The translations under genes and the position numbers were made by a program. A model generated the notes under the pieces. The model made no database searches. It was not told where the DNA came from and saw only the letters and a list, made by a program, of their open reading frames with translations. A stretch of 64,000 bases of DNA, from NCBI RefSeq assembly GCF_009846755.1, contig NZ_AQOR01000014.1:1-64000 (forward strand), read 5' to 3'. Shown piece by piece: positions 40,392-56,197 of the stretch. The stretch is from Alcanivorax sp. S71-1-4. Its GTDB lineage: Bacteria > Pseudomonadota > Gammaproteobacteria > Pseudomonadales > Alcanivoracaceae. Every line of letters begins with the position of its first letter. Positions within the stretch are counted from its first letter, which is position 1.

Positions 40392-42334
<1,943 letters not shown>

Positions 42335-47866: not shown

Positions 47867-48513
47867 TGCACTGCCTCCTGCGACACCGCCTGCTGGTCCG
47901 GCAACGGCGCATTGCCCAGATAGGCCAGGCCCCACTTCTCCGAGACCGGGCCATCGAATTCCACCGGCCCCCAGGTGGCCGGATCCCGCCAGTAGGCGAC
48001 ATAGACAAAACGCTTCACCAACGTCGCCAGCGCTTTCTGAATGGTGTTGCCGTGGGACCAGTCATCGAAATACTGCACCGCATCCGCTGTTTCCAGATCG
48101 ACAAACCGGCGGCCGTGCCAACCGGAGACCACGGCGGCGTTATCAAACAGCGTCAGCCCCATGCCGACCTGCTTGCGCAGGTGGCCCGGCAACAGGCCGA
48201 TCATATGATCAATGTGCTGCACCACCGGCACCTGCGACAACGGCGTCAACGGCGTGCCCTGCACCGGCAGCAACACTGCCGTGGCGTGCTGGAACAGATG
48301 GTATTCCGAGGCGGTGAGGTACCGGATGCCCTCGCCTGGCGGCAGGCTGTCCACCGGCGAGCGGCGCAGCCAGGCAAAACCGGCGCCCGCCAGTGCGGCC
48401 ACACCGGCACCGGCAATAAGCGTGGTACGCAGAAAACGTCGCCGGCTTAGCGACGCAACGGGTGCCGCCGCATGGCGGGCAGCCCCTGGAGTGGGTGTTG
48501 TTGTTCTGGTCAT
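47863..48513 (-). CDS. Tat-exported small subunit (gluconate 2-dehydrogenase subunit 3-like), module 1
   Basis: A 216-residue protein with a twin-arginine signal peptide (SRRRFLRTTLIAGAGVAALA). A mature helical domain starts at YLTASEYHLFQHATAVLLP and ends with VYVAYWRDPATWGPVEFDGP, a segment also found in the module 2 subunit (NYWRDARTWPGLDYHGP). It is first of the four-gene run. The 211-bp region upstream holds the likely promoter and, at 48585, a GAAACGCGTTTTC palindrome resembling a PsrA-type site; that assignment is weak. Confidence 0.82.
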   Translation of the reverse strand: MTRTTTPTPGAARHAAAPVASLSRRRFLRTTLIAGAGVAALAGAGFAWLRRSPVDSLPPGEGIRYLTASEYHLFQHATAVLLPVQGTPLTPLSQVPVVQHIDHMIGLLPGHLRKQVGMGLTLFDNAAVVSGWHGRRFVDLETADAVQYFDDWSHGNTIQKALATLVKRFVYVAYWRDPATWGPVEFDGPVSEKWGLAYLGNAPLPDQQAVSQEAVQ

Positions 48514-48676
48514 GGCGGCCTCGCCGGTCAGGGCAGTACATCCACGGGCAGTGCACGGGATGAATAGCCGGGCTCAAATGCGCTGAAACGCGTTTTCGCA
48601 CATTAACCAAGGCTTCAGGGTGAAACAAGCTGTCTACCTGACAGGATGGCTTGACCGGATACGACAATCCATACAA

Positions 48677-48701
48677 CAACGCCCGGCATGGCCGGGCGTT
48701 G
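48677..48701 (-). terminator. Stem-loop terminator after the SPFH gene
   Basis: CAACGCCCGGC/GCCGGGCGTTG, an 11-bp perfect inverted repeat with a 3-base loop, begins 24 bases after the SPFH stop. Only a short T-rich stretch follows. Confidence 0.75.
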
Positions 48702-48724
48702 AAAGAGGCATGAAACCGGGGCGA

Positions 48725-49645
48725 TCAGCTGCGCGCGGTTTCCAGCGTCTTGGTGATCGCCGCCACCGCACTGCCGATATTGCTCAGCTCCGCCGGCAGG
48801 ATCATGGTGTTATTGGTCTTCGCCAGGTTGCCAAATTCGTGCACGTACTGCTCGGCCACGCGCAGCGCCACCGCATCCTTGCCCCCGGCAGTGCTGATGG
48901 CCGCCGCCACCCGCTCCAGACCCCGTGCGGTGGCCTCGGCGATCAGTTCGATCTCGCGGGCCTTACCTTCTGCCTCGTTGATCTGGCGCATCTTCTCCGC
49001 CTCGGAAACGTTGATCATCTCCTGCTTGAGACCTTCGGAAACGTTGATCTTCGACTGCCGCTCACCTTCCGACTGCGCCACCACCGCACGGCGTTCCCGC
49101 TCGGCGCGCATCTGCTTTTCCAGCGCATCGAGGATGGTCGCCGGCAGCTCGATGTCGGCAATCTCGTAACGCAGCACCTTCACGCCCCAGGGCTTGGCCG
49201 CATCATCCAGGGTGATTACCACCTGATTGTTGATGCTCTCGCGCTCTTCAAAGGTCTTGTCCAGGTCGATCTTGCCCACCACCGACCGCAGCGTGGTCTG
49301 CGCCAGCTGCATGGCCGCATAGCGGTAGTCGTTGATGCCATAGCTGGCCTGCTTGGGATCGATCACCTGCAGGTAGATGACGCCGTTCACCACCACCTGG
49401 ATGTTGTCCTTGGTCACACAAGATTGCTGCGGCACATCGATGGCTTCTTCCTTCAGGGTGTGGCGGTAGGCCACCTTGTCCACAAACGGAATCAGCAGGT
49501 GAAAGCCGGCGTCCAGCGTCTTGGCGTATTTGCCCAGCCGTTCGACCACAAAGGCGGACCGTTGCGGCACAATCCGCGCCGTCTTGATCACCGCCACTAC
49601 TACAAACACCACCGCCAGACCGGCGAGAATCGTCGCTATCGACAT
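48725..49645 (-). CDS. SPFH/Band 7 domain membrane protein (QmcA/stomatin-like)
   Basis: A 306-residue protein with one N-terminal membrane helix (~6-24), then an SPFH domain (KTARIVPQRSAFVVERLGKY, LIPFVDKVAYRHTLKEE) and a long charged C-terminal coiled coil (RAERERRAVVAQSEGERQSK). Family members form large membrane rings and influence proteases and lipid domains. Start at ATG 49645 with GGAG at 7 bases; upstream residues of the longer frame are not conserved. The NfeD-like gene sits upstream on the same strand, the well-known SPFH-NfeD pairing. Confidence 0.93.
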   Translation of the reverse strand: MSIATILAGLAVVFVVVAVIKTARIVPQRSAFVVERLGKYAKTLDAGFHLLIPFVDKVAYRHTLKEEAIDVPQQSCVTKDNIQVVVNGVIYLQVIDPKQASYGINDYRYAAMQLAQTTLRSVVGKIDLDKTFEERESINNQVVITLDDAAKPWGVKVLRYEIADIELPATILDALEKQMRAERERRAVVAQSEGERQSKINVSEGLKQEMINVSEAEKMRQINEAEGKAREIELIAEATARGLERVAAAISTAGGKDAVALRVAEQYVHEFGNLAKTNNTMILPAELSNIGSAVAAITKTLETARS

Positions 49646-49720
49646 TGCGTTACTCCATGATGTGAAAATCGAGTCCAAGCTATAAAAACCGTGGCCCAGA
49701 CCGCGCCGTCCCGGGGGACG

Positions 49721-50179
49721 TCAGCGCTGGCTGGCCGATACTTTCAGCACGATACCGCAGTTGCCTGATACCCAGGCCACATCACCGGCTTTCAGGTCAT
49801 CACTGGACTCCGCATCCCATTTGGCACCGTGCATCTGCACATGGCCGCTGCCATGGACAAAGTCCGTCAGCACCGTCACCCGGCTGCCCACGGCATCCCC
49901 CAGCCCCGCCTCAGAAGACGGCGCATCCCCCACATTGCCGGTCAGCCAGCCCTTGAAGTGACGGCGGGCGCCAAACAGCGCCACCAGGCTGATCACCGCA
50001 AACAGCCACAGCTGGCTGGTCAGGCTCTCGGTGATGCCGAACAGCGTCAGCAGGCCGACGATGATCGCGCCGATGCCGAAGAACACAGCGATGACGCCGG
50101 TGACGAACAGCTCGGAGATGATCAGCAGGAAACCCAGGATCAGCCACAGGGCGTAATCGGTGAATAGTTCAGCAAGCAT
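49721..50179 (-). CDS. NfeD family protein
   Basis: A 152-residue protein with three or so membrane helices (ALWLILGFLLIISELFVTGV, GIGAIIVGLLTLFG, SQLWLFAVISLVALFGA) followed by a C-terminal OB-fold-like soluble domain (GSRVTVLTDFVHGSGHVQ). It corresponds to the short NfeD1b type that partners SPFH proteins. The ATG at 50179 begins the conserved N-terminus. Its stop is 75 bp before the SPFH start. Confidence 0.9.
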   Translation of the reverse strand: MLAELFTDYALWLILGFLLIISELFVTGVIAVFFGIGAIIVGLLTLFGITESLTSQLWLFAVISLVALFGARRHFKGWLTGNVGDAPSSEAGLGDAVGSRVTVLTDFVHGSGHVQMHGAKWDAESSDDLKAGDVAWVSGNCGIVLKVSASQR

Positions 50180-50431
50180 GGCGGGGTTCCGTGTTGGGGA
50201 TATGACGGGGAGTGAATATAGCAGGATGAGGGGGTTAATGCGCGGGGGGAGTCGAGGCCACAACGCTATGGGGCAAGCGGCCTAGCCTGCGGAGGATAGG
50301 CGATATGCTTCCCTAGGCCCCAGACCAGAGGCGATGTTTCAGTGAACGATATTCGGCTTTTCCCCAACGTGCGGTACGGCGGGCCGGCAGCAGGGACAAA
50401 GAGCCCCCGATGCCAGCACTTGCCAAATTTC

Positions 50432-50803
50432 TCACTCGCTCGCATACCAATGATGATAAAAATCATCTTCGGCCACTTCGCCTAGCGAAGGCGGCACTAT
50501 TAGCTGATAGTCGTTTGAGAAACCCAGTACCAAACGCCCCTTGCTATACTCAACCGACGTCAGGCGCACTCGATCAAGCGGATTCAGGCAGACGCACCAT
50601 ACTTCAAACTCTGGAGTAGCTCCCGGATATTCACTTGAATCAGCCACACAGCCTGACAGACCGTGAAGCGTCCAGGGTGGGTCAATCCAGATGTACTCTT
50701 TCTTGCCAGCGAAGCGAAGTTTTATTGAGTTACATGCCAGTGTTCTTTCGCAGAGTCTACCGACAAAACCGTTAATAATTCTTACATCTTTGTCGTGATC
50801 CAT
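50432..50803 (-). CDS. Hypothetical protein (possibly DUF6188-like)
   Basis: A 123-residue soluble protein with no export signal. The pattern of a short N-terminal GFVGRLCERTLACNSIKLRF strand pair, YIWIDPPWTLHG, and a C-terminal LVLGFSNDYQLIVPP recalls small DUF6188-type proteins. That is a weak similarity from memory, and no function is implied. It is the first gene of the AT-rich island, on the same strand as the cassette genes, but no attC was found next to it. The element R3a lies 48 bp upstream of its start. Confidence 0.6.
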   Translation of the reverse strand: MDHDKDVRIINGFVGRLCERTLACNSIKLRFAGKKEYIWIDPPWTLHGLSGCVADSSEYPGATPEFEVWCVCLNPLDRVRLTSVEYSKGRLVLGFSNDYQLIVPPSLGEVAEDDFYHHWYASE

Positions 50804-50850
50804 TTTTTCCCTGAAGTTAGTCCCCAGAAATCAGCCAACGAATTCAATTA

Positions 50851-50936
50851 GGTACACGCATGGATTCATGATATCAATTCCTGCTGGAATGACATCGCAC
50901 AAACATCAACCTAAACCACCAGCTCGTGCGTGCCCG
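50851..50936. repeat. R3 element a (~86 bp)
   Basis: It begins GGTACACGCATGGATTCATG and ends CGTGCGTGCCC, one of five related copies. It shares the interior AATTCCTGCTGGAATGACATC and CAAACATCAACCTAAACC with copy d (type I interior). It forms the left boundary of the transposase fragment. Confidence 0.85.
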
Positions 50937-50937
50937 T

Positions 50938-51239
50938 ATTTTCCGACCGACAAAGCCTGCTGTGACTCCGCAGCATCTACCGCACCGCTCACCCAACGCT
51001 TCACCACCATCGGGCCACTAAAGAGCATCATCCAGCGTTCTGCCACCTCCAGACCAGTCCAGGAGGCAGCCTTGTCGCGGTTGATCCGCAACACCAGATG
51101 GTAATGATTGGACATCACTGCATAGCCACACAGATCAATGGCGAATACATCAACCAGCACCGCCAGACGATCCACCACCCACTGGCGGCGGTGTTCACAA
51201 TTCTGCCCTGAATAGCAATCCTTGCCACAAAGAGAAACA
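50938..51239 (-). pseudogene. Fragment of a Y1 (REP-associated, TnpA_REP-like) transposase
   Basis: Reading on the minus strand it gives GKDCYSGQNCEHRRQWVVDR, FAIDLCGYAVMSNHYHLVLR and VAERWMMLFSGP, the internal part of REP-associated tyrosine transposases. The HYHLVL segment contains the HUH metal-binding motif. The N-terminal ~25 residues of the family and everything after roughly residue 125, where the catalytic tyrosine would lie, are absent. Both breaks coincide with R3 elements a and b; an ATG inside R3b gives an open frame starting at 51277, but that is a chimera. Not expected to be active. Confidence 0.8.
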
Positions 51240-51242
51240 ATC

Positions 51243-51322
51243 GGGGACACGCATGGATTCATGACACAGCCCACCATGACATCACCTTAACATCCACATA
51301 GATTGCCAATTCATGCATATCT
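51243..51322. repeat. R3 element b (~80 bp)
   Basis: It begins GGGGACACGCATGGATTCATGA, has the type II interior CACCTTAACATCCACATAGATTG, and ends in a degenerate ATTCATGCATATCTC. It lies between the transposase fragment and the HEPN gene. Confidence 0.8.
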
Positions 51323-51398
51323 CGCACTTACTACCGCCAGAAAATCATGCCAAATCCGCCTCTATTATTATAGAAAATACGCAAATTAATGTGCGCCA

Positions 51399-52040
51399 CT
51401 AGTTTTTCTTGTCTAGTTTACGAAACAAGTCATTTTGAAATACATCCGCCATAAGAAGCAGCATCATCTGCGTAAATTGAATATGCTGCTGCAGATCAAT
51501 CGAAGATAAATCTGGTTCATTACCATGAGCGACCCCATGCCTCCAGCCGACCAGCTCTTTATCAATTTTTATTCTCCATCTCTGAAACGGTACAATCTCA
51601 AAACCGAGAATATTAAAATTGTGGGAGAGGGTTTCAAAGTTAAGATTTGATCTTGATCTAATAGCCATATCGTCAAAACTACTGAAATTGCTATTGATGA
51701 GCAACTTCAGCCTATCAACGAACTCTCTTTCTGCAGACGGAGAATGGTTCCTATCCCTAAGACGCTGCAAATCCGGCTTTAAAACACCTATCAATAAAGA
51801 CCAAGATATATCACTAACCTTGCTATCAGAATCCCTCAGAGCTTCAATATATTTGTTTACACATTCGTTATAGAACCCTTCCCAATGTGCATAAGATAAG
51901 ACAATCAGGGCCTTAGAGTTAATGCCATATTTTGCCACCCCATTGATTTCAGCCATTCTAATTTTCAGTTCTGAGAGTTCACGAGCTCTCCTTAATCGCT
52001 CCGCATCGATCTTGTGTATAAAATTAGCTAGATTAGTCAT
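51399..52040 (-). CDS. HEPN-domain protein, MAE_28990/MAE_18760-like
   Basis: A 213-residue soluble, helical protein. It contains ALIVLSYAHWEGFYNECVNK near residues 44-63 and GWRHGVAHG (R167 and H172), the Rx4H motif of HEPN ribonucleases. This family is usually found next to a DUF262 gene, as here; HEPN proteins act as toxins or as RNases in defence systems. ATG 52040 overlaps the DUF262 gene by 8 bases, so the two form one unit. AT-rich composition. Catalytic activity is inferred from the motif only. Confidence 0.8.
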   Translation of the reverse strand: MTNLANFIHKIDAERLRRARELSELKIRMAEINGVAKYGINSKALIVLSYAHWEGFYNECVNKYIEALRDSDSKVSDISWSLLIGVLKPDLQRLRDRNHSPSAEREFVDRLKLLINSNFSSFDDMAIRSRSNLNFETLSHNFNILGFEIVPFQRWRIKIDKELVGWRHGVAHGNEPDLSSIDLQQHIQFTQMMLLLMADVFQNDLFRKLDKKN

Positions 52041-53136
52041 TTGGATTAAACCAGGCTTCTCCAAACGGTATAGTCCTCTGCAATCTAGTTGTGCCCCTGA
52101 GCCCTGACGCACTTAAATCGGCAACTTCCTTTTGCCTCCAAAAATCATCGATCCTAGATCCAATAAACTCTCTAGGGTTCCCCATGCTAGAAATTGATTC
52201 TTTATTTCTTGCAATGCCTACCAAAATTGACTCTAGCCCTCGTAGAGAGAAGCGCTTTGCGATTCCTGAATGAGCCTCGTCATGAGGAATTAGTGCGTTT
52301 CCCTGATACAAATCGTCGAGCATATTCAATGCCCAAGCGACCTTATCTATTTCAGGCTCTGGGTCGCCATCTACGATTACCTTTAAGATACTTCTATCTA
52401 AAAAATCTTGCACATCGAGCTCACCACTATAGTCTTCTGCTGTATGAACTATAGCTCGAACCAAATACTCCACATTCTTTTGCTTATACCTTTGTTCCTC
52501 AGTGACATTAAGGACCCTAATGAACCTTTCTGAATCTGCTATTTCCTTAATACGCCGAGTGGCGTCGGGATTACCAAGCACCATTGAACATGTACGGACT
52601 TCCTGCTCATTTGCGTACTCCCCTCCTCTATTTAACCTCTGAAACAAATCGAACTTTGTTTTGGGATCACTAGGATGCTTTAGTATTTGAAAATCCAAAC
52701 GAGATCTACGAAAAAAAAGCTGTAGAGACTTATCCAACGCAGAGTTTGCATCCTTTCCAGACCAACTTATTCCTTTAAGGGATTTTAGGTAAGTCGCAGA
52801 GTATAATATTGAAGAGGGAACTATTTTAGTTCGATCATCGGGATCTCTTAGTATCCCCATAAACTCTAGTATGGTTGAAATCCTTTGCAATCCATCAATC
52901 AACTCCCACGTACCATCACTATTCTCAAAAGCGAAGGCAGGAGGAACTGGGATTCCTATTAGGATAGATTCTATAAATGCTGTCTTTTTCTCAATTCCCC
53001 AACGAAACAATCGTTGAAAATCAGGAATGATATCCAACTCCCCTTGGGAATACATTGATGCGATCTCACCGATAGATATTTGAATATTATCTGTCGTAAC
53101 AGATCTTTTGGCTTGTTCTAGCTCTTCTCTTAACAT
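52033..53136 (-). CDS. DUF262 domain protein (ParB/Srx-like N-terminus)
   Basis: A 367-residue protein. DUF262 hallmarks are IPDFQRLFRWGIEKKTAFIE (residues 37-56) and WELIDGLQRISTI (77-89), where the DGxQR motif resembles the NTPase/nuclease site of the ParB superfamily. DUF262 proteins include GmrSD-type modification-dependent nucleases and many phage-defence components. No DUF1524 HNH domain is visible, so it is not GmrSD. The ATG at 53136 has AAGGTAGGG upstream. In-frame starts further upstream lie in R3c (MNSCVS), so the element might supply an alternative start. Confidence 0.85.
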   Translation of the reverse strand: MLREELEQAKRSVTTDNIQISIGEIASMYSQGELDIIPDFQRLFRWGIEKKTAFIESILIGIPVPPAFAFENSDGTWELIDGLQRISTILEFMGILRDPDDRTKIVPSSILYSATYLKSLKGISWSGKDANSALDKSLQLFFRRSRLDFQILKHPSDPKTKFDLFQRLNRGGEYANEQEVRTCSMVLGNPDATRRIKEIADSERFIRVLNVTEEQRYKQKNVEYLVRAIVHTAEDYSGELDVQDFLDRSILKVIVDGDPEPEIDKVAWALNMLDDLYQGNALIPHDEAHSGIAKRFSLRGLESILVGIARNKESISSMGNPREFIGSRIDDFWRQKEVADLSASGLRGTTRLQRTIPFGEAWFNPND

Positions 53137-53165
53137 AACCCTACCTTGCTGGAAAAACCCTATTG

Positions 53166-53251
53166 AGGACACGCATGAATTCATGATACTAACCTGCACC
53201 ACTATGCCATTACATTAACATCCACATAGATCGGCAATTTGTGCGTGTCCC
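53166..53251. repeat. R3 element c (~86 bp)
   Basis: It begins GAGGACACGCATGAATTCATGA and ends TGTGCGTGTCCC with the type II interior. On the minus strand an ATG inside it (53184) is in frame with the DUF262 gene. It abuts, and seems to have removed the left half of, attC 3. Confidence 0.85.
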
Positions 53252-53254
53252 ATG

Positions 53255-53312
53255 CTTGCTTCGTCGCAAACAGCGGCGCGTCAGCGTCCGCCATTGCTTT
53301 GCCTTGTTATAC
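53255..53312 (-). other. Partial integron attC site (3)
   Basis: The minus strand reads GTATAACAAGGCAAAGCAATG directly after the GIY-YIG gene, the usual 5' end of an attC, then GC-rich sequence. The expected GTTRRRY end is missing where R3c begins. The core GTTATAC (plus strand, 53306-53312) equals the core at the other side of the same cassette (53742-53748). Confidence 0.6.
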
Positions 53313-53315
53313 GAA

Positions 53316-53732
53316 CTATACATCATCCAGGTATTTTCTCTGATTCAGGGGCCAATCGCCCATACAGACGACCGACAATCCTGGACGTGAAATTCTGGAA
53401 GAACAACTTTGAATATTACCCCATGGTTGTACACGATGAATTAACAAGCTTTCGATATCGCAAAGCAGCTGGTGGGTTAACCTGCGATCGTTATCCAAAG
53501 CCACCTCACCGATTAACGCGCTATGCTCATAAATCCCACGCTGACGCTCTAGATCATCCCAGAATTCTGCTTTACCCGAACGACTCCATCGTTCTCGGAC
53601 TGTGGCGCCCCAAGATTTTCCGATATACAAAATTTCGCGCTGACCCGGTGCCAGATAGGCATAGAGGCAGCGGATCTGCCGCCAGCCTTCATGTCCCTCA
53701 TCCAAATTCTGCCAATGGATATCTACTCTCAT
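53316..53732 (-). CDS. GIY-YIG nuclease-like cassette protein
   Basis: A 138-residue protein. LYAYLAPGQREILYIGKSWG (about residues 23-42) corresponds to the GIY-x10-YIG region, in a variant form (LYAYL/LYIGKS), followed by a conserved arginine in VRERW. The C-terminal part (LLCDIESLLIHRVQPWGN) fits the family, with a Glu in the right area. The ATG at 53732 is 10 bases after the attC core, typical of cassette genes, and attC 3 follows its stop. Function in the cassette is unknown; it could be a defence or repair nuclease. Confidence 0.75.
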   Translation of the reverse strand: MRVDIHWQNLDEGHEGWRQIRCLYAYLAPGQREILYIGKSWGATVRERWSRSGKAEFWDDLERQRGIYEHSALIGEVALDNDRRLTHQLLCDIESLLIHRVQPWGNIQSCSSRISRPGLSVVCMGDWPLNQRKYLDDV

Positions 53733-53741
53733 GCTCGACAC

Positions 53742-53815
53742 GTATAACGCCCGCCGCACGCGCGGCTTTGTAGTGGAGGCGAAGCCGCAACGAAAAAGCC
53801 GTCGCTGTACCTGCG
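53742..53815 (-). other. Integron attC site (2), degenerate
   Basis: It shares the central hairpin region GCGGCTTTGTAGTGGAGGCG plus AAGCCGC with attC 1. On the minus strand it ends GGGCGTTATAC just before the GIY-YIG start codon. The other end has lost the AAC core (reads AAAAATCGCAGG). Confidence 0.72.
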
Positions 53816-53829
53816 ATTTTTATGCATAT

Positions 53830-53927
53830 CTATTCAGCCCCCAGCATATCTCGCAATTCATTTACATAACGCTGCCATTCCTCAACAATCTGCCTAGTAA
53901 CGGTAGATTCAAACTCTGGACGAACCA
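53830..53927 (-). pseudogene. C-terminal remnant of a cassette gene
   Basis: An open 32-codon stretch on the minus strand with no start, reading LVRPEFESTVTRQIVEEWQR and on to RDMLGAE and a TAG stop, just before attC 2. Codon choice and helical character look like real protein. Element R3d begins 4 bases upstream, where the rest of the gene should be, so the gene was apparently truncated at the R3 insertion. Confidence 0.55.
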
Positions 53928-53930
53928 ATC

Positions 53931-54017
53931 GGGGACACGCATTGATTCATGACATCAATTCCTGCTGGAATGACATCACACAAACATCAACCTAAACCAC
54001 CATTTCGTGCGTGTCCC
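53931..54017. repeat. R3 element d (~87 bp)
   Basis: The clearest copy: GGGGACACGCATTGATTCATGA at the left and TTCGTGCGTGTCCC at the right. Two internal stem-loops are visible (TTGAT/ATCAA and ATTCC/GGAAT). Type I interior, as in copy a. It lies between the DUF2513 gene and the truncated cassette gene. Confidence 0.88.
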
Positions 54018-54048
54018 GTATTTTGGTCCCCTGTCCCCTACTTTTTCT

Positions 54049-54426
54049 TTAGCCCCCAGCCGCGCCGCGAATCAGGGCCACCGAGATCTCGGATGCGACG
54101 GACTTGACCAAGTCAAACGTCATGTCGATGCCCTTTGAGGTGAATGTTTTCTTGGTCTTATTCCAGACAGTGTCAGACCGGATGGCGTCCAAGAGCTCGT
54201 GGCCCGGCCACGTGAGGCGTCTGGCGAAGAAGTGTGTAGGGCCATGGCCCAGCGTCCGCGACATCTGTCCCTCAATGAGACCAGCGCCAATGAGTAGCTC
54301 TACATGGTAGGAGTACTCGTAGGCGCGATCAGCAGGGAAGTCGGATAGGTGAAGCGTAGCATCGGTATCCGGCAGTTCTTCCAAGCGTGTCAGGATTTCG
54401 CGGATTGTGTCCCAGTTGCGCTTCAT
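54049..54426 (-). CDS. DUF2513 domain protein
   Basis: A 125-residue protein. MKRNWDTIREILTRLEELPD at the N-terminus and YHVELLIGAGLIEGQ followed by RRLTWPGHELLDAIRSDTVW match the DUF2513 pattern, a small family common in prophages and mobile DNA with a winged-helix-like appearance. The C-terminal part has a hydrophobic helix (DLVKSVASEISVALIRG). It is preceded by R4a upstream and followed by R3d, with no attC of its own visible. Function unknown. Confidence 0.8.
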   Translation of the reverse strand: MKRNWDTIREILTRLEELPDTDATLHLSDFPADRAYEYSYHVELLIGAGLIEGQMSRTLGHGPTHFFARRLTWPGHELLDAIRSDTVWNKTKKTFTSKGIDMTFDLVKSVASEISVALIRGAAGG

Positions 54427-54442
54427 CTTTCCCTTAGGGTCT

Positions 54443-54555
54443 CAGAGATTAGAACGACGGATCGTATATTGAATAACGACGAACGCCCCCCCTTCAATAA
54501 TTTATGCATTCACAGAATAAGCCCCATCCATCAAGGACTTACAAATAAAGCAGAA
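54443..54555. repeat. R4 repeat copy a (~113 bp)
   Basis: It aligns with 56080-56197 at high identity. Shared blocks are TCGTATATTGAATAACGACG, CTCAATAATTTATGCATTCA and CTTACAAATAAAGCAGAA. It lies immediately upstream (minus strand) of the DUF2513 gene, as copy b does for the DUF5343 gene, so it may carry a promoter or an old cassette end. Confidence 0.85.
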
Positions 54556-54575
54556 GAAAAGCATGAAACCGATTT

Positions 54576-54670
54576 GGGACATGCATGAATTTATGATGTC
54601 AACTTCCGCCGCCACGAAATCACCTTAACATTCACATAGATCGTCAATTCGCACCAATTCGTGCGTGTCC
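54576..54670. repeat. R3 element e (~95 bp)
   Basis: It begins GGGACATGCATGAATTTATGA and ends TTCGTGCGTGTCC with the type II interior. A short GCACCAATTC duplication near the right end makes it longer. It lies between R4a and a truncated cassette ORF. Confidence 0.82.
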
Positions 54671-54675
54671 TATAC

Positions 54676-54736: not shown

Positions 54737-54820
54737 CCCTAACGCCGCCAACACGCGCGGCTTTGTAGTGGAGGCGAAGCCGCAATGAAAAATACGCCGC
54801 TGTGCTTGGCCTTGTTAGAG
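54737..54820 (-). other. Integron attC site (1)
   Basis: Best attC in the window. The minus strand begins CTCTAACAAGGCCAAGCAC seven bases after the stop of the 172-aa cassette gene, contains GCGGCTTCGCC and CTACAAAGCCGC as an imperfect palindrome, and ends TGTTGGCGGCGTTAGGG. AAC and GTT cores are at the ends, 84 bp overall, normal for an attC. Orientation agrees with the minus-strand cassette genes. Confidence 0.82.
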
Positions 54821-54826
54821 ATCAGA

Positions 54827-55345
54827 TCACTTAAGAGATGCAAGAAAGACGATCTCCTGAACTACTGTGCGTACATCTTGCATAACCCTGTCAATATCTC
54901 TTCTTTGTGCAATGAATCTTCGACTGTGCGCAGATTTGTCACCAATATCTTTTAATGCCTTAAGTGATGCCTTGGCATTTCTACCCAGATTCCAAGTTGG
55001 TTCAGTCAGCATTGCAGAAATTAGATCACTTAGATACACGAAGTCACCTGAGCTATTTTTTATTTTTTCAGACAATCCCTTAGATTCAAAGCACTCAATA
55101 ATCAACGTCTCTACAAGTCGTCTAGTAATGACTGCACATGCATCATACCAACCGTGCTCATATGTGCCATTGATTTGGTGAGCGAGTTTTTCAATATACC
55201 CCCTCGTCCCACTGACTAAAGATAGATATACAACTGGCTGCTGCACACTATGCCCAGTGTCTTCTGGGGGTGGATTATTTTTCCTTAAAGCCTCATTTAG
55301 AGCTTTTACTTTTTCGAGGACTTCAGTCGTACTTTCGTTTAGCAT
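54827..55345 (-). CDS. HEPN-like (DUF4145-type) cassette protein
   Basis: A 172-residue soluble helical protein. YEHGWYDACAVITRRLVETLIIE and the late LKALKDIGDKSAHSRRF are typical of DUF4145-like and other HEPN-fold proteins, although a clean catalytic Rx4H is not present. Its ATG overlaps the stop of the DUF5343 gene by one base (TAATG), and attC 1 lies directly after its stop. The two genes therefore probably travel as one cassette. Role unknown; a toxin-antitoxin or defence function is only inference. Confidence 0.72.
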   Translation of the reverse strand: MLNESTTEVLEKVKALNEALRKNNPPPEDTGHSVQQPVVYLSLVSGTRGYIEKLAHQINGTYEHGWYDACAVITRRLVETLIIECFESKGLSEKIKNSSGDFVYLSDLISAMLTEPTWNLGRNAKASLKALKDIGDKSAHSRRFIAQRRDIDRVMQDVRTVVQEIVFLASLK

Positions 55346-56034
55346 TACTGGTTAAAGTCCTTAAGATGCTTTGCCATTGATTCGAAGATCTTATCAATTT
55401 GCTCAGGCGAACTTTCAGGCGATATATGCACCTGCACATCGATATGTAACTTTGGGCTAAAGCCACGACCATTCGGGTCTGGATTACGAAGCTGTTGTTG
55501 TGGTGCTGGATCAACCGCTTTGGGATTGGAAGTCTTCGGTTTTGGATTGTCCTGTTTCTTAGCAGATTTTGTTCGCGGGCTGGACGCCTTTCCTAGATCT
55601 TTCGAAGGTTCTGGCTTTTTCTGGAGCAGCATTAGGTATGTCGCAGCATATTTTTTGGCCGCTGCCTCGCCGACTTTCGCATCTCTCATGAACCAGGTCG
55701 TTAAATTTCCGAGTTCTGCATCAGCGGTGTGATAGAGATCACGCAACTCTTGCGGGTAAATCGTATCGATTATGCTTTCGCAGACTCCCGGATATTTACT
55801 GTCATCGCGCCAATCATACGCGAGATCAGTGGGTTTTGAGTCGGCTCCTATTATCCCAAGCGCTTTTAGTGGGGAAACAACGTTTGATCTGGCTGATGCT
55901 TCAGCCATTGACATAGCACTCGCAACGTAAGACGAACTAATTTCCGCCGGAACCCTTTGCTTCAATTTGTCTCGCAGGCCGAACCAATTGGCCTGTGCGA
56001 TCATGGGATACCCTTTCTTCTTATCCTCTGCCAT
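55345..56034 (-). CDS. DUF5343 domain protein
   Basis: A 229-residue protein. Residues ~5-145 fit DUF5343 (GYPMIAQANWFGLRDKLKQR, AEASARSNVVSPLKALGIIG, DLAYDWRDDSKYP, IYPQELRDL). This is followed by a low-complexity Lys/Pro/Ser/Asn linker and a short C-terminal strand-helix segment (LHIDVQVHISPESSPEQIDK) that may be a partner-binding tail. GTTAGAC, a perfect attC-type core, lies 27 bases upstream of the ATG. It is the first gene of a two-gene cassette with the HEPN-like protein. Confidence 0.8.
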   Translation of the reverse strand: MAEDKKKGYPMIAQANWFGLRDKLKQRVPAEISSSYVASAMSMAEASARSNVVSPLKALGIIGADSKPTDLAYDWRDDSKYPGVCESIIDTIYPQELRDLYHTADAELGNLTTWFMRDAKVGEAAAKKYAATYLMLLQKKPEPSKDLGKASSPRTKSAKKQDNPKPKTSNPKAVDPAPQQQLRNPDPNGRGFSPKLHIDVQVHISPESSPEQIDKIFESMAKHLKDFNQ

Positions 56035-56067: not shown

Positions 56068-56079
56068 TCGGATCTCTAA

Positions 56080-56197
56080 CAGAGATTAGGACGACGGCTC
56101 GTATATTGAATAACGACGCACGCGGCCTATCTCCCCTCAATAATTTATGCATTCACAAAATAAGCCCCACCCATCAAAGGCTTACAAATAAAGCAGA
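56080..56197. repeat. R4 repeat copy b (~118 bp)
   Basis: The second copy of R4 (see 54443-54555), with a few substitutions and a short insertion near the middle. On the minus strand it contains TTGTGA-like and TAAATT-like hexamers that might form a promoter for the DUF5343 cassette; this is uncertain. Confidence 0.85.

Follow-up and report, generated by a model that had tools for sequence, protein, structure and literature searches.

Among described elements, the closest to the one treated here are the TIRYTs, or TIRtrons (Di Nocera 2013; PMC3733652), which correspond to subclass 2.1 of the TnpA-Y1 transposases (Quentin 2018; PMC6006769) and, as far as the accessible parts of these papers go, consist of a gene for an HUH/Y1 protein of ~330 residues between inverted repeats with a GGGGWSAS-type motif, the repeats of a family occurring also as gene-less dimers and clusters. 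The survey in PMC6006769 records subclass 2.1 in 14.9% of strains and saw no sign of mobility for its class. Here we describe R3, a repeat present in five copies in an integron cassette array of Alcanivorax sp. S71-1-4, within a stretch of 64,000 nucleotides of contig NZ_AQOR01000014.1 (hereafter 'the window'). Judged by sequence comparison, R3 is a ~90-bp gene-less miniature relative of a TIRYT-class Y1 transposase element, and we consider it highly probable that a TIRYT miniature, single-strand transposition on the lagging-strand template, local multiplication and later recombination jointly account for what is found. The likeness to TIRYTs extends to the gene of this size between inverted repeats and to gene-less repeats. 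However, the R3 dimers sit in integron arrays, and edges and strand bias argue here for mobility, whereas the accessible portions of PMC3733652 and PMC6006769 mention neither integrons nor attC sites nor a leading-strand bias for TIRYTs.

With REPINs and their RAYT transposases, R3 has in common that it is a short, gene-less inverted doublet on which a Y1 enzyme presumably acts in trans, the closest solved fold of this enzyme being that of a RAYT (4er8), and the relation of R3 to full-length elements resembles that of REPINs to RAYTs. R3 differs, however, in having no GTAG-tagged hairpin of the repetitive extragenic palindrome (REP) type, in its long inverted ends, in its few copies and in the apparent mobility of the full-length unit; instead of REP hairpins with GTAG or GGAG, its ends are inverted repeats of GGGACACGCA without covarying end pairs. 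The IS200/IS605 elements IS608 and ISDra2 likewise possess an HUH/Y1 enzyme and show one-way orientation relative to replication, as is found here, whereas the termini of TIRYTs are inverted repeats, apparently in place of the subterminal hairpins of IS200/IS605, and their protein is larger, with a C-terminal extension. IS1111-attC elements and group IIC-attC introns insert at a fixed place in attC; R3 likewise lies among cassettes, but occupies no fixed place in attC and goes with another class of transposase. In agreement with the earlier note on this DNA, no description of a pairing of R3 and Y1 genes with integrons was found in the searchable literature, subscription papers lying outside the search, while the TIRYT class itself is known. 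As far as could be searched, three things are new: the R3 family of miniatures, its residence in integron arrays, and the common edges and replication bias that these TIRYTs display.

All five R3 copies listed in the earlier note were located in the window, in a single orientation and with a mean column identity of 76%, together with a piece of a transposase gene:

50849-50937 (tips 50842-50942), minus strand: R3a, type A miniature TIRYT, recombinant, with an R3d-like interior
50942-51241, minus strand: remnant of a Y1 transposase gene of the TIRYT class (codons ~28-121), HUH motif kept, without the part carrying the invariant Tyr
51242-51324, minus strand: R3b, type A miniature, left-end side (in transposase sense) degenerate, right-end side abutting the Y1 relic
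53164-53252, minus strand: R3c, type A miniature, left-end side abutting an attC without its last box
53930-54018, minus strand: R3d, type A miniature, inverted ends intact
54574-54672, minus strand: R3e, type A miniature, carrying an internal insertion of 10 bp

The copies have their ends in common, although the shared end GGGGACACGCATG is letter-perfect only at 51243 and a few bases off in the others. Two interior types do exist (identity 58% between A and B, and 70% and 77% within the types), but the five copies of the window, across which both had been supposed to be distributed, are all of type A.

A sequence-only model built on the five window copies returned 13 matches in the S71-1-4 genome at E up to 1, including four copies on contig C2 (E 1e-9 to 0.008), and 14 matches in the sister genome (G004), 13 of which are R3-like in full or nearly so (E 7e-20 to 0.002). 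Since a model made from the window finds copies on C2 and in G004, chance is excluded. When the genus set of seven genomes was scanned with this model, a half copy was seen in G002 and no match in the other four genomes. A second model with a seed of 21 copies was run over the family set of 46 Alcanivoracaceae genomes, and 22 strong copies (E up to 4e-15) are confined to two of them, 9 in the S71-1-4 genome and 13 in G004. Weaker rows of this model (E up to 0.01) comprise partial copies or transposase ends on C2, C12, C53, C59 and at 716-724 kb of G004, shadows on the reverse strand, and isolated weak matches, one in each of six further genomes. When exact inverted cores spaced 50-80 bp apart were sought without any model, four sites were obtained in the S71-1-4 genome (two in the window) and three in G004 (reversed-pattern control: 0), and others in three genomes of other genera, there in part near their own transposases.

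The Y1 piece between R3a and R3b is a dead relic of a family of ~330-residue transposases, with its best match (82%) in G004. At the DNA level, it matches codons 28-121 of a full-length relative from 51237 to 50955, that is, to within 5 nt of R3b and about 18 nt of R3a, whereas the protein alignment extends to 50909, inside R3a, probably as a loose extension; the supposed truncation exactly at R3 hence stands as to closeness on both sides, but not to the letter. H71, H73, Y182 and N186 are invariant in 20/20 aligned transposases, and we take Y182 to be the counterpart of the catalytic Tyr of E. coli TnpAREP. The predicted fold has as its best match the REP-associated transposase 4er8 (E 3.8e-3, probability 1.00), followed by chains of, among others, IS608 and ISDra2, with no match at E 0.001 or less. 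An HUH motif and a single Tyr together with a Y1 fold place the protein in the TIRYT class (TnpA-Y1 subclass 2.1). Scores stay below the cut-off for Pfam Y1_Tnp (17-20 bits) and for the NCBIfam REP transposase (38-40 bits; cut-off 80), and neither a PDB sequence search nor PHROGs gave a match; with PF01797, one other Y1 gene of the S71-1-4 genome lies above cut-off. The C-terminal extension is helical in the predicted model and, in two full-length proteins, yielded no Pfam helix-turn-helix match up to E 1.

It is the ends that link R3 to this enzyme. A full-length TIRYT unit measures ~1.13 kb, its HUH/Y1 gene being flanked on the left by GGGACACGCA, usually followed by AATTG, and on the right by AAATTTATGCGTGTCCC. 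Full-length relatives in the family carry R3-like ends, GGGACACGCA…TGCGTGTCCC; in full-length genes of other genera, the distance from the core GGGACACGCA to the start codon is mostly 108-111 nt, and the inverse core follows 34-39 nt past the stop. When the ends of R3 were typed against full-length ends from outside the genus, all 21 testable copies agreed (one cut copy was excluded), and the end placed on the right in the earlier note proved the more left-end-like of the two. The transposase sense of R3 is thus the minus strand of the window, parallel to the genes and attC sites. Both the end-typing and the existence of full-length elements with these ends bear out the proposal that R3 is related, as a non-autonomous element, to the Y1 family represented by the relic between R3a and R3b. 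As expected of a miniature, R3 has both ends, no gene and several copies, the match being limited to the ends.

The edges of full-length copies point to the same boundaries. Among 59 pairs of copies that are >=80% identical, the shared stretch starts 110-119 nt upstream of the start codon in 26 and finishes 30-59 nt past the stop in 19. One copy in genome G010 matches a tandem set of three at 96.5% identity, with -110 and +42 as the exact limits of the match. GGGACA upstream together with its inverse downstream was found at 9 of 16 Alcanivoracaceae loci (control 0.1%). The strict 8-mer GGGG[AT][CG]A[CG] stands on both sides at 1 of the 67 loci used (out of 80, the rest being without flank or left out), and terminal inverted repeats (TIRs) of this kind are present in the family when one G is relaxed.

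Some further features of full-length copies may be mentioned here. A deletion of G4_716 was considered as a source of R3 and rejected, for the apparent left-end match is best read as a truncated R3 upstream, the gene's own left end lying nearer the start. Some TIRYT copies have a tandemly doubled left end, with cores at -214/-108 and -164/-108 (L035:2610-2825; L219, at 1.047 Mb of G004), perhaps by repeated insertion or slippage. At 1.192-1.220 Mb of G010 (L164-L165), three TIRYT copies are 99.8-99.9% identical including their flanks and lie ~3.2 kb or multiples thereof apart, forming a tandem repeat unit, and at 43 kb of G004 (L042:6894-7620) a TIRYT copy is broken after codon ~108 by a second TIRYT fragment.

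A second line of evidence is provided by orientation relative to replication. Leading and lagging strands were assigned from GC skew, with 20 samples per genome, in three complete genomes (G004, G010 and G019), each showing two clear halves. All 26 transposase matches are on the leading strand (G004 8/8, G010 13/13, G019 5/5); they represent 15 loci more than 20 kb apart and include fragments and one tandem set. Likewise, 13/13 R3 copies and 4/4 attI sites of G004 run along the direction of replication, while the baseline for ordinary open reading frames is 314/582 (54%). One-way insertion is what PMC6006769 states for IS608 and ISDra2 as the expected outcome of transposition into the lagging-strand template. 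Replication bias and shared edges, as features of sequence, suggest that TIRYTs are mobile and constitute evidence, though indirect, to this effect. Taken together, shared edges and a complete replication bias in three genomes represent a testable sign of TIRYTs as single-strand transposons.

It is thus tempting to propose the following course of events. The transposase would excise elements as single strands from, and insert them into, the lagging-strand template, as the enzymes of IS200/IS605 do; R3 may then have multiplied locally around TIRYT copies that had landed in integron arrays of this lineage, possibly helped by the tolerance of arrays for insertions. Subsequently, recombination between R3 copies of the same direction, or adjoining deletion, could have removed and swapped segments of the arrays, making R3a a recombinant and perhaps explaining why the Y1 relic, some attC sites and a group II intron relic stop near R3. 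Integron recombination would not be needed for any of these steps, though some R3 copies may have travelled with cassettes. For the REPs of Marinomonas, too, local multiplication close to transposases already in place has been suggested (PMC8266576). In our data, a TIRYT gene or relic is present in 4/7 R3 loci, and R3 types cluster by array, with 72% identity within and 65% between arrays, a difference reached in 5/5000 label shuffles.

A number of observations weigh against this account. R3 and full-length elements have only ~16-20 bp in common at each end, and no source of the ~50-bp interior came to light; R3 is therefore not a plain internal deletion. As many as 33 of the 59 TIRYT pairs begin elsewhere (10 at 40-49, and 8 running past the flank window used). 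Six of the seven TIRYT genes checked in the genus have no right end at the usual place, and hence no intact pair of source enzyme and element was seen in the S71-1-4 genome or G004; outside Alcanivoracaceae, the same ends on both sides occur at 0/51 loci. The model that scored the strong R3 copies had 21/22 of them in its own seed, although the five-copy model, too, recovered the 17 that lie outside the window (E up to 0.01). The skew rests on 20 samples per genome, and the TIRYT at 788926 of G010 lies near a skew switch. The seven R3 loci amount to five distinct sites, since two loci of the S71-1-4 genome are orthologous to two of G004, and three of the seven are without a TIRYT relic and are not explained by local multiplication. 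Finally, when sister arrays were compared with a view to reconstructing empty sites, as had been envisaged, no homologous junction was found that is without R3 and has both flanks.

The surroundings of R3 raise the question of whether the enzyme is directed to integron sites. The cassette array of the window lies on the minus strand between SPFH/NfeD-like and ETF genes, named by reading the translations, while the domain scans covered the open reading frames of the array; the sites recognized in it are:

53261-53309 (approximate), minus strand: attC without its R' (last) box, adjoining R3c, seen by eye and not called by the model
53742-53825, minus strand: attC with a mutated R'' box, covariance model E 3.6e-15, in the seed
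54443-54486, minus strand: second attI-like site, damaged, with a duplicated ~85-bp leader reaching to about 54570
54737-54820, minus strand: attC, covariance model E 2.2e-17, in the seed
56072-56131, minus strand: attI-like site at the head of the array, with no integrase relic beside it

Calls of attC were made with a covariance model trained on this genus, which may miss attC sites of others; of earlier searches, two were dropped as too strict and one as no better than shuffles, and cut attC sites were read by eye in the flanks of all 22 strong copies. That nearly every cassette boundary has an attC, whole or cut, or an R3 holds for the window; an R3 on C2 (C2:109841) departs from this rule, lying inside a cassette, between a stop codon and an intact attC.

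The earlier note had suggested that the transposase seeks folded attC-like strands, and one may extend this to a TIRYT/R3 system that recognizes folded attC or attI strands and inserts in or beside them. All 22 strong R3 copies, in two genomes, indeed occur at loci that have attI-like and/or attC sites, and they run parallel to these in transposase sense (22/22); in G004, they form five clusters located 0.4-7.8 kb from such a site (5/5 within 8 kb), while 2.6% of the genome is within 10 kb of one. Moreover, a partial attC touches 3/22 copies by eye (R3c, listed as wc, G4_3771677 and G4_709513), and also a truncated end beside G4_3771509. However, transposases with the same ends in other genera of the family have no attC around them in any of 38 sources (27 reaching 1.5 kb to each side, 11 of 10-16 kb), even though attC is present in 40/46 family genomes, and 80 wider transposase loci gave 4 weak attC matches only. 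In the two R3 genomes themselves, 6/14 transposase matches are in arrays and 8/14 outside. In none of the 22 copies do the flanks, read by eye, hold the two halves of one attC; what two R3 ends interrupt is a group II intron relic. Replication accounts for the common direction, since attI sites and transposases far from arrays follow it as well. Targeting of folded attC strands was hence not borne out, and we regard it as very improbable.

Equally, R3 might be thought of as a functional part of the array that is kept by selection, such as an attC-like site, a terminator or an RNA element, and its position at cassette boundaries and its inverted ends would fit such a role. By the hallmarks of attC, R''/L''/L'/R' boxes of the pattern TAAC…GTTA and a structure better conserved than the sequence, R3 is not an attC, however: the attC model gave no match below E 0.1 on strong copies, one at E 0.25 overlapping the end of G4_709513. 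Alignment folding yielded no consensus fold, 0/11 end pairs show compensatory changes, and single strands folded with z-scores from -4.06 to +0.60 over 10 strands; without consensus fold and compensatory pairs, the agreement in size between R3 and attC looks fortuitous. Rfam gave no match in the window and, at R3 in six other loci, only two group II intron matches. As 44/46 family genomes are without a strong copy, although 40/46 have attC, a selected function of this kind appears scarcely credible.

As regards the later fate of R3, the copies mark breakpoints, since R3a is a recombinant and sister arrays cease to be homologous within R3 or close to it. The outer part of R3a resembles the orthologous copy of the sister genome and its inner part R3d; 22/23 informative sites fit a single breakpoint, which 11/100000 shuffles reach. 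Orthologous loci are the window and 1.90 Mb of G004, C2 and 41 kb, C59 and 0.71 Mb, and C56 and 3.77 Mb. In the first pair, homology (94%) runs from 48001 to 50921 and ends inside R3a, the arrays differing in genes beyond this point; in the C2 pair, it stops 39 nt before an R3 (L042:8339 and 8378). The R3 loci suggest that miniature repeats can make an array without integrase reshuffle at the repeats, which matters for the evolution of attC-only arrays.

Alternatively, R3 may be a passenger, carried from array to array inside cassettes or beside a group II intron and hence confined to arrays without any targeting. In line with this, (i) C2:109841 lies inside a cassette, (ii) C2_112221 and G4_3808, at different loci, both follow the same group II intron relic (95.8% over 119 nt), (iii) the same intron occurs ~0.14 kb before G4_710830, and (iv) contig C56 holds an intact intI, the sole full integron integrase found in the S71-1-4 genome. 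However, the types cluster by array, as stated above, intI was found at the R3 loci in the form of relics only, and the C56 array beside the intact intI is without R3, while its sister array in G004 has four copies; furthermore, bar the intron relics and orthologous sites, R3 copies have no common neighbours at E up to 1e-6. Passage of this kind thus seems rather unlikely as the explanation, and we continue to prefer local multiplication followed by recombination.

Relics of this one group II intron beside type B R3 copies were recorded at L041:8425-8694, L035:7042-7217, L043:8800-8918 (minus strand) and L035:2550-2610, with RF02005 in two. In three of them, as well as in a short match next to G4_1906, intron sequence sets in directly past a TIR-like core ending in GCA, which looks as if the intron had used TIR ends as its site. 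On C2, the left-end side of R3 112221 breaks the intron, which continues in L041, and the other flank is not its continuation.

A more far-reaching proposal follows from the genes between R3c and R3b:

51399-52040, minus strand: RiboL-PSP-HEPN gene, overlapping its GmrSD_N/NsnA-like neighbour
52033-53139, minus strand: GmrSD_N/NsnA-like gene, between R3c and R3b

If R3 copies bounded composite segments, the transposase would pair the left end of one copy with the right end of its neighbour, and the intervening genes, such as GmrSD-HEPN, would move as a single-stranded unit. The R3 copies of one array do share their direction, GmrSD-HEPN is flanked by R3c and R3b with no attC called between them, and R3a is where homology with the sister genome stops. 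These facts follow equally from ordinary recombination between repeats, however. Exchange between R3 copies would likewise leave a transposase relic with R3 close by at either side, and the same picture would result if a segment bounded by R3 had transposed. Such a segment was not encountered at a second location, and for the GmrSD-like gene the 45 other family genomes contain no close relative (best 37% identity). We consider such composite segments quite unlikely; the earlier suggestion that R3 delimits mobile cassettes may still apply in so far as breakpoints fall at R3. Still more speculative, and in our view improbable, is a second single-strand system operating over integron arrays, in which TIRYT enzymes would move R3-to-R3 segments, for example GmrSD-HEPN defence genes, between arrays without integrase or attC.

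A few observations on the arrays remain. Besides those of the window, attI-like sites lie at C2:105912, C53:110, C59:7255 and C56:3025 and, in G004, at 41245, 708322, 1904279 and 3773525. Such sites without a working integrase adjoining them are scattered over both genomes, a full intI in G004 not having been searched for; those on C59 and at 708 kb of G004 still have intI relics, while no integrase relic was found in the window array. As to cargo, the GmrSD_N/NsnA-like and RiboL-PSP-HEPN genes (51399-53139, minus strand), with no attC called between them, form a candidate two-gene defence module. A small open reading frame (53316-53732, minus strand) is by eye presumably GIY-YIG nuclease-like, with no Pfam match, and the first cassette region (54827-56034, minus strand) holds a PDC-M34A/DUF5343-like gene and a weakly DUF4145/PD-Lambda-5_A-like gene.

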